Origin: a virus
Virus record (IMG/VR): IMGVR_UViG_3300046306_000001
Location: 1 to 31,074 of that record
Direction: 5' to 3' (one strand)
DNA: 31,074 nucleotides
A program made the translations under genes and the position numbers. Each line of letters begins with the position of its first letter. Position 1 is the stretch's first letter. The notes beneath the pieces are model-generated. The model was not told where the DNA came from and made no database searches. It saw nothing but the letters and a program-made list of their open reading frames with translations. Below, one piece after another: positions 5,280 to 30,297 of the stretch.

Positions 5280-7823
5280 TTATCCTATTCTGTTGCGTTG
5301 CTTTTCTGCACGTTGTAATGCCACCACTAAATCCTGCCCTCTTAACACAAATTCACCTGTCATTGCACCGCCTCCGCCATTGCCTTGATCCATCATGCCC
5401 TGTAATTTAGACAATGGTGCAATTACTTCCGGATTTGATTTTGCACCCGGATATTCACCCATTAAACCCATTGTTGGCCCCGAAACAATACCACCTGCGG
5501 CAAATTTTGGAATGGCTGCAAATGCTGCTAAAACTCCACCAACTGCCGTTGAAATAAATGCCGGTGTTGTAAAGATAGCGGCCGGCCCTGTTGCGGCTCC
5601 TGATTGTGCTGCTCCTTGCATTACAAATCCCAATGATGATGCAAGGTTCATTACTAATTGCTTTGCAACCATTGCGCCTAATGCAACTAATGTTTGCATC
5701 ATCTGTCCTGCAAATCCCTCCAAACCTGTTGATGCCAATCCCATTGAATCCACAATTGATTGCCCCAATGCACTAAATGCCTGTCCGGCTGTATCTGCAA
5801 CCATTTGACCAATAGCCATAATTCTTTCCATCTGTGCTGCAACATTTGCGGCCGCTGTGGCTGCATCTGTATTTGCAAATGTATTTATGACTTCCGCAAC
5901 TGCACCAAATTTTTCCTCTAATGCTAATAAATCTTCTTGATCGTATTTGGCATTTAATGCGGCTGAATCTGATCTAAATTTTTCATCAATTGCCTTTGTA
6001 CTTTGATGCAGTCTATTGCGTTCATTTATTTGTTGATCATAAACTGATGCCAAATCTCCAACCTCTTTTTGGCGATCTGTCAAATATTTTGTTGCTAATG
6101 CATCCGCTGCGGCTTGATCTTCTTTGCCTACCTTGTCTTTTAAGGCTGAAAGTTTATCAAATTCGCCTGCAAAATATTTGTTGCTTTCTTCAAATGCTTT
6201 CTTTTTTGCTTCTTCAACGGGATCTTTTCCGCCTTTTTTTGCTGCTTTTGGCGCACCTGTTGCCGTTTGTGTTCCTGTGCTTGTTGCTGATTCAACTTTA
6301 TTCAAATCAATATTGCCCATTTTGGCATATGTTTCAATAAGTTTATTAATGCTTGCTATTTCTGTTTTTGTTCTATTTGCACGATCAACGGCCCCTTTGG
6401 CCAATAAATTTCCATTATTTGTTGCTACACCATAAGCCAATGCCAATGCACCCATAACAGATGATCCTGCATCCGCTTCGCCTGTTTGCAATTCTAATTT
6501 TTTTGCTGTTAATGCCTCAATTTTAGCATTTGCCGCCATTGTCATCGCTTTTTGGCGCAACGATCCAATGTATTTATCCATTGATTTTTTGGCACTATCT
6601 GTGCCAATTGTTTCCAATGTAATTCCGTTTAAATATTCAGGGGATATTGCATTGATTGCTGCAATTGCTTTTTTTCTTTCAGATAATGAAACATTCTGAT
6701 TTTCAGCCAATTTCACCAATCTTTGCAATTCATTTTCCTCTTTTATTGTGGCAGCCGCTGATTCCTTTTTTAAATTATTGACCTCTTTTTGTACATCAGT
6801 CAATTGTTTAAAAACACCCATTTGAACCAAATAAACGGCTGTTAATCCGGCAACTAATGCAGTAATTGCAACCAAAGGATTTGCCATCATTGTTGCCCAA
6901 AGGTATTTGACCGCCTTTGATGCGTTTGTAAATCCTGTGATCATATTTGTTGAAAGGAATCCAACTGCAATTAATACAGGGCCAATGGCTGCGGCTAAAC
7001 CTGCCAATACCATTATAATTGTTTTGGTTGTTGTTGATGTTTCTGAAATTGATGTCATCAAACTATTCATTGCTTTGAATGCAGCCGTAACGTATGGCAA
7101 TATTACTTGACCAAATTGCGCCCCGACCTGTTTTAATGATTCGGAAAACATACGCATTTGATTTGCCGCCCCATCGCTTGTTCGTGCAAAATCGCCCTGC
7201 GCATTTGCTGTGTTGGCCATCACATAATTGTATCTCAACAACACTTTTTCAGCCTGTGTCATCGTATCATATTGCTTTGTCATCCCTTGCGATAATGCAA
7301 AGGTTTTCAAATTGGTTTCGGTCATAATAACACCTAACCTTTTTAATGATTCCGTTTCACCGGTGAAAATTCCATTTAAAGCCGTTGTGGCTTCCTTAAT
7401 ATCAATATTTTTAAATGATGATAGATCACCTGCTAATCCAACCAAAGATGTTGATAATTTGGCGGATTCATCTGTACTTAATCCCATTGATGTTGCCATA
7501 TCGCCAAATAATGCGGCCATATCTAATGCCGTACCCTCTGCAATACCGAATGATGTCAATGCGTTTTTGGCAAATGCCTGAACTTCTTGTGATGAACTTT
7601 TAAATGCCACATCAACTTTGTTCATAGATTCGTTAAAATCTGATGCTAATTTGACCGCTGCGCCACCGGCTAATGCCAAAGGTGCTGTGACATACATTGA
7701 CATTGATTTGCCAATATCTGATGCAGTTTGTCCAAAATCTTTTAATTTCTTGTCTGCGCTCGATAATGCATCATTTAATCCTGATGCGTCACCGGTTATT
7801 TTTACGTTTAATTCATTTGCCAT
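5280..7823 (-). CDS. Tape measure protein
   Basis: 847 residues; the largest alpha-helical protein of the tail cluster and immediately downstream of the tail-assembly chaperone pair. It has the typical plan: an N-terminal helical domain with repeated Gly/Ala-rich segments, hydrophobic segments at about 268-291 and 312-336, a coiled-coil middle rich in Lys/Glu/Ala, and a Gly/Ala-rich hydrophobic C-terminal region. That region ends in a conserved FAAGGIVSGPT...GLMGEYPGAKSNPEVI motif common in tape measures. The protein sets tail length and is threaded through the tube. At about 0.15 nm per residue the tail would be near 125 nm, which suits a siphovirus. A terminator-like hairpin lies just before its start, so its expression may be set lower than that of the tube genes. 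Confidence 0.93.
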   Translation of the reverse strand: MANELNVKITGDASGLNDALSSADKKLKDFGQTASDIGKSMSMYVTAPLALAGGAAVKLASDFNESMNKVDVAFKSSSQEVQAFAKNALTSFGIAEGTALDMAALFGDMATSMGLSTDESAKLSTSLVGLAGDLSSFKNIDIKEATTALNGIFTGETESLKRLGVIMTETNLKTFALSQGMTKQYDTMTQAEKVLLRYNYVMANTANAQGDFARTSDGAANQMRMFSESLKQVGAQFGQVILPYVTAAFKAMNSLMTSISETSTTTKTIIMVLAGLAAAIGPVLIAVGFLSTNMITGFTNASKAVKYLWATMMANPLVAITALVAGLTAVYLVQMGVFKQLTDVQKEVNNLKKESAAATIKEENELQRLVKLAENQNVSLSERKKAIAAINAISPEYLNGITLETIGTDSAKKSMDKYIGSLRQKAMTMAANAKIEALTAKKLELQTGEADAGSSVMGALALAYGVATNNGNLLAKGAVDRANRTKTEIASINKLIETYAKMGNIDLNKVESATSTGTQTATGAPKAAKKGGKDPVEEAKKKAFEESNKYFAGEFDKLSALKDKVGKEDQAAADALATKYLTDRQKEVGDLASVYDQQINERNRLHQSTKAIDEKFRSDSAALNAKYDQEDLLALEEKFGAVAEVINTFANTDAATAAANVAAQMERIMAIGQMVADTAGQAFSALGQSIVDSMGLASTGLEGFAGQMMQTLVALGAMVAKQLVMNLASSLGFVMQGAAQSGAATGPAAIFTTPAFISTAVGGVLAAFAAIPKFAAGGIVSGPTMGLMGEYPGAKSNPEVIAPLSKLQGMMDQGNGGGGAMTGEFVLRGQDLVVALQRAEKQRNRIG

Positions 7824-24799: not shown

Positions 24800-25951
24800 C
24801 TATTTATTTGATTCGTAAATCTCGCCATTTTTCTTAATCACTAAACTCGGATCAAGTTTTTTCATTCGATCAATAATTACCTGACAATAATCAGGGCTCA
24901 TTTCAACACCATAACATGTTTTCTTTATTTGATGTGATGCAACCATTGTTGATCCTGAACCTAAAAATCCATCATATACAATATTTCCCTTTAAATAATC
25001 TTTTATAAAATCTGCACACATTTGAATTGGTTTTTGGGTTGGATGAACTCTTTTGCCACTTTCTCCTTCTTTAATCATTCCACTCCAAATTTGTTTTTTT
25101 ATTCTAACAGGACTCGAAAAAGATGTCCAAGCCATTTCACCATCAGCAAAATTATTGCTATTCATTTCGCCTCTTTTATCCCATATTAACCAACATGGTG
25201 ATGGATTAAGAAAATCAGTAAAATAGTTTCCACCCCAAATAATAAAATTTTCTATTCCCAATGCTATACAGGTATGATAAAATTCTCTTGCTGTATCTGT
25301 TGTATCATCTCCAATTATAGGGGCATAAATTCCATTTTTAGCTAAATTATCGCCTCCAACTTTTCCATTTGAACCAACAACTTTAATTCCATAAGGTGGA
25401 TCTGTAAAAACTAAATCAATTTTATCCCCATTTATTAATTTTTCAACTGATGATAAATCTGTTGAACTTCCACATAATAATCTGTGTGGCCCTATCTCAA
25501 ATAAATCACCAATAACAATATCTGTTTCCAATCCGCCTTCCGGTGCATCATAATCATCCTCATCTGCCGTTCCTGCATCAACAATGTCCATCACAGGCAA
25601 ATCTAAACCCCAATCAATCAATTCATCTTGATCCCATTCATTAGCCAACATATCCCAATCCCATTCACCAAACCCTACATTGTCGGTAATAATAAATCGT
25701 TTCTGTTGTTCCGGTGTCAATGCTGATGCCTTTATGATTGGCACACGTTTCAATCCGGCTTCAATGCAGGCACGTAAACGCATATTTCCACCCAATACAA
25801 TCATATTGTCATCAACAACAATGGGCCGCAATTGCAGCATTTCCGGAAACTCTTTAATGGACTTCACCAACTTTTTAAACTTATCATCCTTGATCAAACG
25901 TGGATTGTTTGGATGCGGAATTACCAATTTAATATTTATTTCCTCTATCAT
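24800..25951 (-). CDS. ParB-like / DNA N-methyltransferase fusion
   Basis: 383 residues in two parts. Residues 1-~100 form a ParB/sulfiredoxin-type domain (IPHPNNPR, then RPIVVDDNMIVLGGNMRLRA). Residues ~145-370 are an N4-cytosine or N6-adenine methyltransferase, with the catalytic DPPYG at 184-188 and the SAM-binding DGFLGSGST motif (about 327-335) after it, the beta-class order. It methylates DNA, probably for protection from host restriction; the ParB part may bind DNA. No restriction partner is nearby. The DNA between about 24900 and 25500 looks more AT-rich than its surroundings, suggesting recent acquisition. The start overlaps the preceding microprotein by 4 nt (ATGA). Confidence 0.93.
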   Translation of the reverse strand: MIEEINIKLVIPHPNNPRLIKDDKFKKLVKSIKEFPEMLQLRPIVVDDNMIVLGGNMRLRACIEAGLKRVPIIKASALTPEQQKRFIITDNVGFGEWDWDMLANEWDQDELIDWGLDLPVMDIVDAGTADEDDYDAPEGGLETDIVIGDLFEIGPHRLLCGSSTDLSSVEKLINGDKIDLVFTDPPYGIKVVGSNGKVGGDNLAKNGIYAPIIGDDTTDTAREFYHTCIALGIENFIIWGGNYFTDFLNPSPCWLIWDKRGEMNSNNFADGEMAWTSFSSPVRIKKQIWSGMIKEGESGKRVHPTQKPIQMCADFIKDYLKGNIVYDGFLGSGSTMVASHQIKKTCYGVEMSPDYCQVIIDRMKKLDPSLVIKKNGEIYESNK

Positions 25952-28807: not shown

Positions 28808-29554
28808 TTAATTTATTTGTCCGTTTTCATCCAATGTCATATCCATTTCGGCTAATTGATAACAAAACAATTTGTATGCCTCCCCTTTACATTCTGCGAT
28901 GTATAATTTGTCATCAATAAATTTTGGCCTCAATCGTGTTTTAATTTGTTCACGATCTACATCAGGGCATACCCATATTCCAAATTTTACTAAAAAATCA
29001 TACATATGCATAAGTCCACCGGCTCTCCATTCAAATTTTTGCCCATTTTTTTCTGATAATTTTATTCTTTTAACGTATGAATTTACATTTGCGATTGCCA
29101 TAAACTTTAATTCATCATTGGTTGGAACCGGTTTGATTCTTTCGAGTTCAGGCTTTTTTACATTCTTTGTTTCCTGCCTTGCATACTCAATGTATGCGTT
29201 CATAATCCGGCCAAAATATTCACACGAAAAATTCTCATAACATTTGCAATCGGTGTTTAATTTGCCGGCAACTGCGTATTCAAATGCAATGGCTATTTCT
29301 TCGGGTGTTTGATTTCCGTAATTTGATTTGATAAATGCTAACAAAACATATTTTTCCTCATCTGTTGGCATATTTGCACCACGCAGGCCAACCATTAGCA
29401 TTGATAACCTTAATACCTGTTTTAAATCATTTTCAGGCCGTACACGGATGTTCTCTGTGCTTTGTGCCTTTATGATTAAATTGGCTGTACCCTTACCAAT
29501 TTCTAAGGGCTTCCATTCTTGCTGCACTCGTTCCAAGTTTTGTTTCTGATCCAT
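28808..29554 (-). CDS. Replication-associated hypothetical protein
   Basis: 248 residues from ATG at 29554 (MDQKQNLERVQQEWKPL). A longer start at 29617 would lie deeper inside the upstream gene and is less likely; even the chosen start overlaps it by 62 nt. The middle has a block (PTDEEKYVLLAFIKSNYGNQ, then IAIAFEYAVAGKLN and YFGRIMNAYIEYA) that I associate with a protein following the replication organiser in Bacteroidota phages. It may serve as a helicase-loading or primosomal factor, but no Walker motifs are visible. Confidence 0.78.
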   Translation of the reverse strand: MDQKQNLERVQQEWKPLEIGKGTANLIIKAQSTENIRVRPENDLKQVLRLSMLMVGLRGANMPTDEEKYVLLAFIKSNYGNQTPEEIAIAFEYAVAGKLNTDCKCYENFSCEYFGRIMNAYIEYARQETKNVKKPELERIKPVPTNDELKFMAIANVNSYVKRIKLSEKNGQKFEWRAGGLMHMYDFLVKFGIWVCPDVDREQIKTRLRPKFIDDKLYIAECKGEAYKLFCYQLAEMDMTLDENGQIN

Positions 29555-30179
29555 TGTTGTTGCTATTAAATTTATTTTTGTTTGCCATCCATGTGCTGAT
29601 TCGCCTGCTAATATCAAAGAATTTTTCGGATTGCCATCTTTCTTTGCCCTTTGAATTTTTTTCTGTCCAATAAGAATTGAAATTATTAAATTCAGTTCCT
29701 AGTGATTGAATGTGTGGTGACAACAGGTCACTAAACACTATTTCATTTACTTTACTTTCATTTTCTTTTATTTCATTTACTTTACTTTCCTTTCCTTTGT
29801 TGAACGGTCGTTCAACGGTCGTTGAAATTCGTTTCTCTGCGGATGCTTTTCCGGCTAATTTGCGTTGCTGTTTCATTCGGAAATATGGCTCTAAATAAAC
29901 CAACATTTTAGGTGAAAAGAATTTCTGATCTGTATCAACTTCAAACAATTCATAATTGCAAATTGTTGTTCTAATCTTTGCCTCTGAAACCCCAAATTCA
30001 TCTGATAATAAATCCAAATCATCCATTGGATACATCAAATCCTGTTGTTCCCTTAATGTTTCTAATAGCATAAAATAAATGCCATACCCTTCAACTCCTA
30101 ACTCCCTGCGCAATCTCCTGATTTTGCGATCATGCCGTGCATTACAGAAATGCGGAAAATAAAATGCCTCTTTGTCCAT
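29493..30179 (-). CDS. Replication organiser, DUF4373 (Lin1244/Lin1753-like) N-terminal domain
   Basis: 228 residues starting MDKEAFYFPHFCNARHD, then KIRRLRRELGVEGYGIYFML, the hallmark of the DUF4373/Lin1244 N-terminal domain of phage replisome organisers (winged-helix fold, residues 1-~105). These bind the phage origin and recruit host helicase. After it come a Lys/Ser/Glu-rich linker with short repeats (KVNEIKENESKVNEI) and a short C-terminal part ending TSAARMEALRNW. A terminator-like hairpin lies 10 nt upstream of the start, so this gene must be reached by read-through. Confidence 0.9.
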   Translation of the reverse strand: MDKEAFYFPHFCNARHDRKIRRLRRELGVEGYGIYFMLLETLREQQDLMYPMDDLDLLSDEFGVSEAKIRTTICNYELFEVDTDQKFFSPKMLVYLEPYFRMKQQRKLAGKASAEKRISTTVERPFNKGKESKVNEIKENESKVNEIVFSDLLSPHIQSLGTEFNNFNSYWTEKNSKGKERWQSEKFFDISRRISTWMANKNKFNSNNNGSETKLGTSAARMEALRNW

Positions 30180-30188
30180 TTAATTTTT

Positions 30189-30230
30189 AAAAAAATAAAG
30201 CCTGAATGCGTAGGAGTGCAGACAGGCTTT
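30189..30230 (-). terminator. Intrinsic terminator just before the replication gene
   Basis: On the minus strand AAAGCCTG (30230-30223) pairs with CAGGCTTT (30204-30197) over 8 perfect bp, an inner TGC/GCA pairs further, and seven T follow at 30195-30189. Confidence 0.8.
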
Positions 30231-30289
30231 GTGGTTCTTAAACCCAATTAATTACCTGAAAACTCCTACCCTTTCAGCTAATTATAAAA

Positions 30290-30297
30290 CAAATATA
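30290..30297 (-). promoter_or_regulatory. Promoter -7-like element
   Basis: TATATTTG on the minus strand, identical to three other copies, just after the stop of the 91-residue gene. No -33 TTG at a standard distance; one lies 25 bases upstream. Confidence 0.42.

Follow-up and report, generated by a model that had tools for sequence, protein, structure and literature searches.

The leader and its location

The sequence analysed, referred to here as the window, is the 31,074-nucleotide stretch of viral DNA at positions 1 to 31,074 of IMG/VR record IMGVR_UViG_3300046306_000001. The larger genes of the window are all on the minus strand, as is the leader described here. The features of the leader and its first gene are as follows.

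30290 to 30297, minus strand: predicted promoter -7 element, TATATTTG (Bacteroidota TAnnTTTG), from the sequence and its relatives
30285, minus strand: predicted transcription start, an A, placed by the spacing in F. johnsoniae, with the G of TTTG at -5 (PMC6847099)
30249 to 30284, minus strand: hairpin P1, with a G/G mismatch and a 10-nt loop, GG-GTAGGAGT, from sequence and covariation
30262 to 30269, minus strand: kissing octamer 1, GTAGGAGT, in the P1 loop, pairing with octamer 2
30233 to 30244, minus strand: small hairpin P2, GGTT-loop-AACC, from sequence and folding
30197 to 30230, minus strand: terminator hairpin P3, with an 8-bp lower stem, a 2x2 internal loop (hinge), a 3-bp upper stem and an 8-nt loop, from sequence, folding and covariation
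30210 to 30217, minus strand: kissing octamer 2, ACTCCTAC, the entire apical loop of the terminator, from sequence and covariation
30189 to 30196, minus strand: U-tract of the intrinsic terminator, ATTTTTTT, from sequence
29493 to 30179, minus strand: first gene after the leader, encoding a 228-aa Lin1244/Lin1753-like protein (PF14297), with a PHROG match to 'replication initiation protein'

On the minus strand, P1 (30284-30249) reads TAATTA-G-CTGAAA-(GG GTAGGAGT)-TTTCAG-G-TAATTA and P3 (30230-30197) reads AAAGCCTG-TC-TGC-(ACTCCTAC)-GCA-TT-CAGGCTTT, followed by ATTTTTTT. The octamer GTAGGAGT (30269-30262) is the perfect reverse complement of ACTCCTAC (30217-30210), an exact match already pointed out in a preliminary description of this DNA, and the two loops are predicted to form an 8-bp loop-loop, or kissing, helix. 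The interval given in that description contained the octamers but did not reach the promoter motif or the 5' arm of P1. It had also been missed that GTAGGAGT is itself a hairpin loop, that TATATTTG is present at 30297-30290, and that there is a middle hairpin (GGTT/AACC, 30244-30233).

The predicted RNA is approximately 96 nt, starting at P1, because the TATATTTG promoter box is directly upstream, and ending at the terminator P3. Between the T-run and the ATG at 30179 there are nine bases. In folding, the leader is 3.8 s.d. better than its shuffles (z -3.84). Its GC-rich P3 stem (30230-30197) is followed directly by the U-tract, which is the form of an intrinsic terminator and is kept in the alignments of both classes of leader described below. 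A scan of the window for kissing terminators gave exactly one match. The leader is not a coding sequence, there being stops in all three sense frames. Searches of the window and seven relatives with the Rfam 15 covariance models gave 0 matches at the gathering score, and a relaxed Rfam search gave chance-level matches only, well below threshold.

The stretch ACTCCTACG (30217-30209) corresponds to part of the universally conserved 16S rRNA 338F primer site, and it contains an anti-SD-like CTCCT. Ribosome binding or anti-SD mimicry by GTAGGAG/CTCCTAC was considered and rejected. Other loop types do not keep these sequences, so the likeness is taken to be a coincidence.

The closest relatives of the terminase include those of phages of Bacteroides, Phocaeicola, and Flavobacterium, in agreement with a Bacteroidota host. 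Nearby isolates were sought with the window region, without a match at the DNA level, and the first gene has only distant initiator matches among isolates (Enterococcus, Lactobacillus, and an unassigned phage). Elsewhere in the window, two genes upstream of the large terminase gene, a 383-aa gene (24800-25951) has a ParB N-terminal domain fused to a DNA methylase domain.

Conservation and covariation of the class I leaders

A protein search provided a starting set of 78 viral loci, and pattern scans added many more. Where the leader is not directly before the Lin1244-like gene, it is often upstream of an extra gene inserted between the two. The class I alignment contains 101 distinct leaders, the window included. 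Pairing is complete at the seven core kissing positions, with 707 of 707 cells paired, and an eighth pair is present in 66 of the 101 leaders. Three of the kissing pairs have compensated changes, at columns 26 (A-U/G-C/C-G), 27 (G-C/A-U), and 28 (G-C/U-A), with wobble intermediates absent. Cells with double changes number 381, against 104.6 when shuffled, and none of 500 shuffles reached as high a count. Judging by a tree from which the octamer columns had been excluded, there have been at least 7 changes of loop type.

The rest of the structure is also conserved. Covariation is seen in 11 of the 12 pairs of P1 and in both the lower and the upper stem of P3, and P2 is kept without covariation in the alignment, being read by eye as GGTA/TACC in two leaders (L035 and L054). 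Conserved unpaired bases are few: the GG/AA beside the octamer, with GG in the P1 loop of 99 of the 101 leaders, and the G/G mismatch in P1. This mid-stem mismatch (30278/30255 in the window) is kept in 74 of the 101 leaders, with A/G in 19 more, and is possibly a protein or metal site.

There are thus two hairpins with complementary loops, the pairing of which is kept through compensated changes, as in kissing loops. Among the collected loci, the combination of a promoter, a hairpin-loop octamer and a complementary terminator loop is found in 116 distinct sequences, compared to 3 in an equal amount of shuffled sequence. The preliminary description had proposed the loop pairing as a functional element, and had named as evidence against it an octamer pair lost where the flanking genes are conserved; this was looked at in the relatives, and it is not the case. 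Since many relatives keep the loop match by changing both loops together, the match is probably not a coincidence but a genuine genetic switch that had not been described before.

An antiterminator had been suggested as well. In an ordinary antiterminator/terminator switch, the two octamers would pair as a conventional helix in place of P1 and P3. For the window itself the cost of such a fold is only 0.7 kcal/mol, because CAGG of P1 (30258-30255) can pair with CCTG of P3 (30226-30223). However, the penalty is 2.6-17.2 kcal/mol for the remaining 100 class I leaders (class median 8.1) and 3.3-11.5 kcal/mol for class II (median 6.9), and the complementarity normally ends at the edges of the loops. 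The kiss is therefore one between hairpins, and an antiterminator helix is very improbable.

Predicted promoter and transcribed strand

The TAnnTTTG sequence is the flavobacterial -7 element (PMC6847099). Of 107 distinct class I upstream regions, 58 have it at -28/-27 relative to the loop octamer and 65 have it anywhere within -45 to -20, where approximately 2 are expected. For class II, it is at -22 to -17 in 16 of 25 upstream regions. The -33 element in the window is poor. Because a promoter motif directly precedes it, and does so at a constant distance in the relatives, the leader looks like the start of a transcription unit. Non-Watson-Crick cells in the stems are G·U in 46 cases and A·C in 7, and this preference indicates that it is the RNA of the leader's strand that has been selected.

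No TAnnTTTG motif was found between the terminator and the first gene, which suggests that polymerase has to read through P3 to reach the downstream operon. The earlier proposal that the gene lacks a promoter and depends on read-through is therefore upheld for the space after the terminator, but it had overlooked the promoter motif of the leader itself.

Hairpins upstream of an initiator-like gene are also what might be expected of plasmid-type antisense (countertranscript) control of the initiator, the other option raised previously, or of a replication-origin element acting at the DNA level. An antisense TAnnTTTG is present downstream of 21 of 107 leaders, which is not an enrichment over the approximately 17 expected from background frequency. 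The 46:7 ratio of G·U to A·C points to a sense-strand RNA and many of the first genes are not initiators. Both forms of this explanation are held to be extremely improbable.

Other architectures and independence from the search

The scanner requires pairing, and much of the leader collection comes from patterns or scans that favour it. The few sets free of this bias are a partly free pattern, patterns based on P1 only, a covariance model without the kissing pairs, and part of the initial loci. With a pattern that left two bases free on each side, 80 of 80 matches (35 distinct) are complementary. Covariance model R1, without kissing pairs, finds two divergent leaders (L031 and L217), both of which keep the kiss.

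The class II leaders (23 sequences) have the roles of the loops swapped, with the pyrimidine-rich octamer in P1 and the purine-rich octamer in P3. Every sequence has the full set of eight kissing pairs, with covariation at five of them. A class II pattern for P1 only gave 40 matches, 38 of which have the full complement; the two misses are unrelated sequence.

A third architecture, the muminphage type, was addressed with a P1-only pattern containing four free bases. All 31 distinct promoter-bearing leaders have an exact 8-nt complement downstream, as do six more without a strict promoter, and there are four loop types. Five other promoter-like matches of this pattern represent one protein-coding sequence of other phages and were discarded. 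Some third-type leaders (e.g. L330 and L334) have interrupted U-tracts (TTTAACTTTTT). Their terminators should be weaker, and they provide a natural series for terminator strength.

The kissing terminator thus recurs in at least three architectures, in many uncultured phages and in cultivated Flavobacterium phages. Six matches to the class I pattern are in bacterial genomes; the only one of these checked (L278) looks protein-coding, and so is a chance match. A covariance model scan of 395 phylum-mates of a Bacteroidia genome, run without a positive control, was empty.

Leaders in isolated phages

Comparison of the class I and class II leaders with deposited phages by blastn gave no match. Leaders in isolates were instead found by scanning the genomes of terminase relatives for the architecture, which identified the third type in the hattifnatt, morran, and mumin groups of Flavobacterium phages. 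Phage hattifnatt9-1 (L293, NC_048832) has two leaders on its plus strand, at approximately 13317 and 14355, with different loop pairs: a GTCGTCG leader is before a NUMOD4 homing endonuclease gene and a GTGAGACG leader is before the primase/helicase block. The loop is GTGAGAAG in morran9-1 and GTGGAACG in mumin6-1 and snusmum6-1, in each case with a compensated P3.

At approximately 5905-6000 of Cellulophaga phage phi10:1 (L298, KC821618), upstream of gp24-gp26, GTACGAC and GTCGTAC were recognised by eye as P1 loop and terminator loop. This candidate was not listed by the scanner and is a lead. A scan for promoter, kiss, and terminator in two Phocaeicola phages, one Parabacteroides phage, and Flavobacterium phage Fpv8 found none, so the kissing terminator is not universal in phages of the Bacteroidota.

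Genomic context and exchange of leaders

Of 21 viral records with a strong class I match, 20 have just one, which amounts to a single copy per genome of approximately 31 kb. The exception is a 59,277-bp record (G028, loci L085/L152) with two class I leaders approximately 31 kb apart, which suggests that the record joins two related phage genomes. The distance from the leader to the first start codon is approximately 4-23 nt. The leader heads a co-directional block of genes, and the gene upstream of it is also co-directional in 147 of the 150 contexts where one was found. The first gene is usually Lin1244-like, the alternatives being a methylase, an HNH endonuclease, and many small unrelated genes. 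Genes inserted next to the leader sit between it and the replication gene. As read from these sequences, there is one class I leader per phage genome, and it heads a co-directional block whichever gene is first.

On a tree of the downstream protein, the architecture switches at least 4 times (starred branches) and the loop type at least 23 times. The leader type therefore changes faster than the gene downstream, indicating that the leader is an exchanged module. One contig with a class I leader (L188) has a predicted second leader of another type on its minus strand at approximately 6587-6690, with a CTACAAC/GTTGTAG pair and the promoter TAGATTTG, directly before an HNH endonuclease gene (ORF 6080-6586).

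A promoter, a structured RNA, and a terminator make a complete minimal gene, and an independent sRNA would look identical. It could be that the leader is a stand-alone phage small RNA of approximately 96 nt, for example a host-factor decoy or a regulator of other RNAs, with the kiss as an internal tertiary fold. P3 would then be merely the end of this RNA, and the downstream genes would be expressed from promoters further upstream. The covariation of loops and stems and the variety of first genes are in keeping with this. However, the leader is co-directional and within approximately 4-23 nt of a start codon in the contexts examined, inserted genes enter between it and the replication gene, and homing-endonuclease genes have their own leader of a different loop type, as for a control element of the gene that follows. 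Both parts of this explanation are unlikely, though less so than the antiterminator or antisense models.

The pace of leader exchange would also be consistent with regulation in trans. The terminated leader RNA could pair with the nascent leaders of like phages, giving copy-number control and exclusion of like-looped phages. The terminated leader would then be a diffusible, loop-addressed RNA, its octamers serving as identity tags that let a phage count its own genomes. A phage would shut down replication operons bearing its tag, or be shut down by them, and co-circulating phages would diverge through compensated loop changes and leader swapping. Phages of LMO6/LMO9 do carry differing, internally compensated loops (GTGAGACG, GTGAGAAG, and GTGGAACG), the two leaders of one genome differ in their loops (L188, hattifnatt), and phage P4 provides a precedent for a sense RNA that terminates its own replication leader (PMC4825925). 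Against this, a few loop types account for most class I leaders. The muminphages, which have LMO6/LMO9 as common hosts, are described as virulent (PMC7077304), so lysogenic immunity is not applicable to them. Furthermore, the partner loop is in the same molecule, and pairing in cis should therefore win. Regulation in trans is doubtful, and the same doubt applies to the diffusible tag and to the divergence of tags it would entail.

Proposed mechanism

The reading preferred here, with moderate confidence, is that the leader is a cis-acting transcription attenuator heading a phage operon, in which kissing of the loops gates the terminator of that operon. As judged from comparative sequence, the elements are two hairpins, a covarying loop-loop pairing, selection on an RNA of the same strand, a promoter motif, and the form of a terminator; termination presumably occurs and is modulated by the kiss.

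RNA polymerase would start at the TAnnTTTG promoter and P1 would fold first. The octamer of the P3 loop would emerge next and kiss the P1 loop while the 3' arm of the lower stem of P3 is still to be transcribed. The kiss can form first because the octamer is made before that arm. The kissing complex would gate closure of the lower stem in time to stop the polymerase at the U-tract. By itself the upper P3 hairpin contributes 0 to -3.9 kcal/mol, compared to approximately -10 to -12 kcal/mol for the octamer duplexes, and the upper and lower stems of P3 are separated by an internal loop or bulge in every type folded. From this order of synthesis, the weak upper hairpin beside a strong duplex, and the hinge between the stems, we infer that terminator closure is gated by the kiss. 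It is slightly favoured that the kiss assists the terminator, since it would hold the weak upper hairpin shut, and in this version read-through would follow when something occupies a loop; the opposite sign, in which the kiss delays closure, is almost as likely. Candidates for the trigger would be a protein, an RNA acting in trans or the state of growth.

Relation to known systems

Loop-loop kissing, intrinsic terminators, and attenuation are all known. To our knowledge, no family has been reported in which a conserved kiss joins the apical loop of a terminator to an earlier hairpin of its own transcript.

In phage P4, immunity is by premature termination before the replication genes, with a leader RNA complementary to its own leader (PMC4825925). 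The leader described here has the P4 CI-type layout, as an analogy of layout only: in both, a phage leader ahead of replication genes has sense RNA complementary to sites in the same leader, and in P4 the outcome is control of termination. P4 uses a processed CI RNA in trans on seqA/seqC, with sites described elsewhere as Rho-dependent, whereas here, as predicted from sequence, two hairpin loops of one RNA pair and one of them is the loop of an intrinsic terminator.

The pT181-type attenuators share the use of kissing loops that control an intrinsic terminator (PMC4878617). However, the pT181 kiss is between the leader and a separate antisense RNA, with exclusive antiterminator and terminator helices. 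Compared to the pT181/pIP501 type, both loops are here in the sense leader, a countertranscript promoter is not indicated, and a mutually exclusive antiterminator helix is not conserved, being near-isoenergetic in the window only.

The L5-L13 contact of the cobalamin riboswitch is a cis kissing-loop expression platform (PMC10907184), and it too docks an upstream element on the loop of a regulatory hairpin. In the riboswitch, docking needs cobalamin and the hairpin concerned hides a ribosome site. In the leader it is the terminator that would be docked, conserved unpaired bases are few, and an aptamer-like core is not apparent. The same work treats as only hypothetical the idea that a ligand could directly stabilise an intrinsic terminator. 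The put RNA of HK022 (PMC9378689) is like the leader in being short, in having two hairpins and in lying close to the beginning of a phage early transcript, and it affects termination in cis, as is proposed for the leader. It differs in that put precedes the terminators and binds polymerase, and a loop-loop kiss with a terminator is not described for put in the section of the source considered.

Searches of the openly available literature on kissing terminators, P4, flavobacterial phages, and structured RNAs gave no description of a kissing-terminator leader. Attenuation itself is known; a conserved kiss in cis that involves the loop of the terminator has, as far as could be found, not been described. 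If the proposal is true, the kissing-terminator phages would have in this leader a regulatory RNA that controls their replication genes. The leader would also offer a clean system for how a tertiary contact steers an intrinsic terminator, and its naturally orthogonal loop pairs may be of use in RNA engineering.
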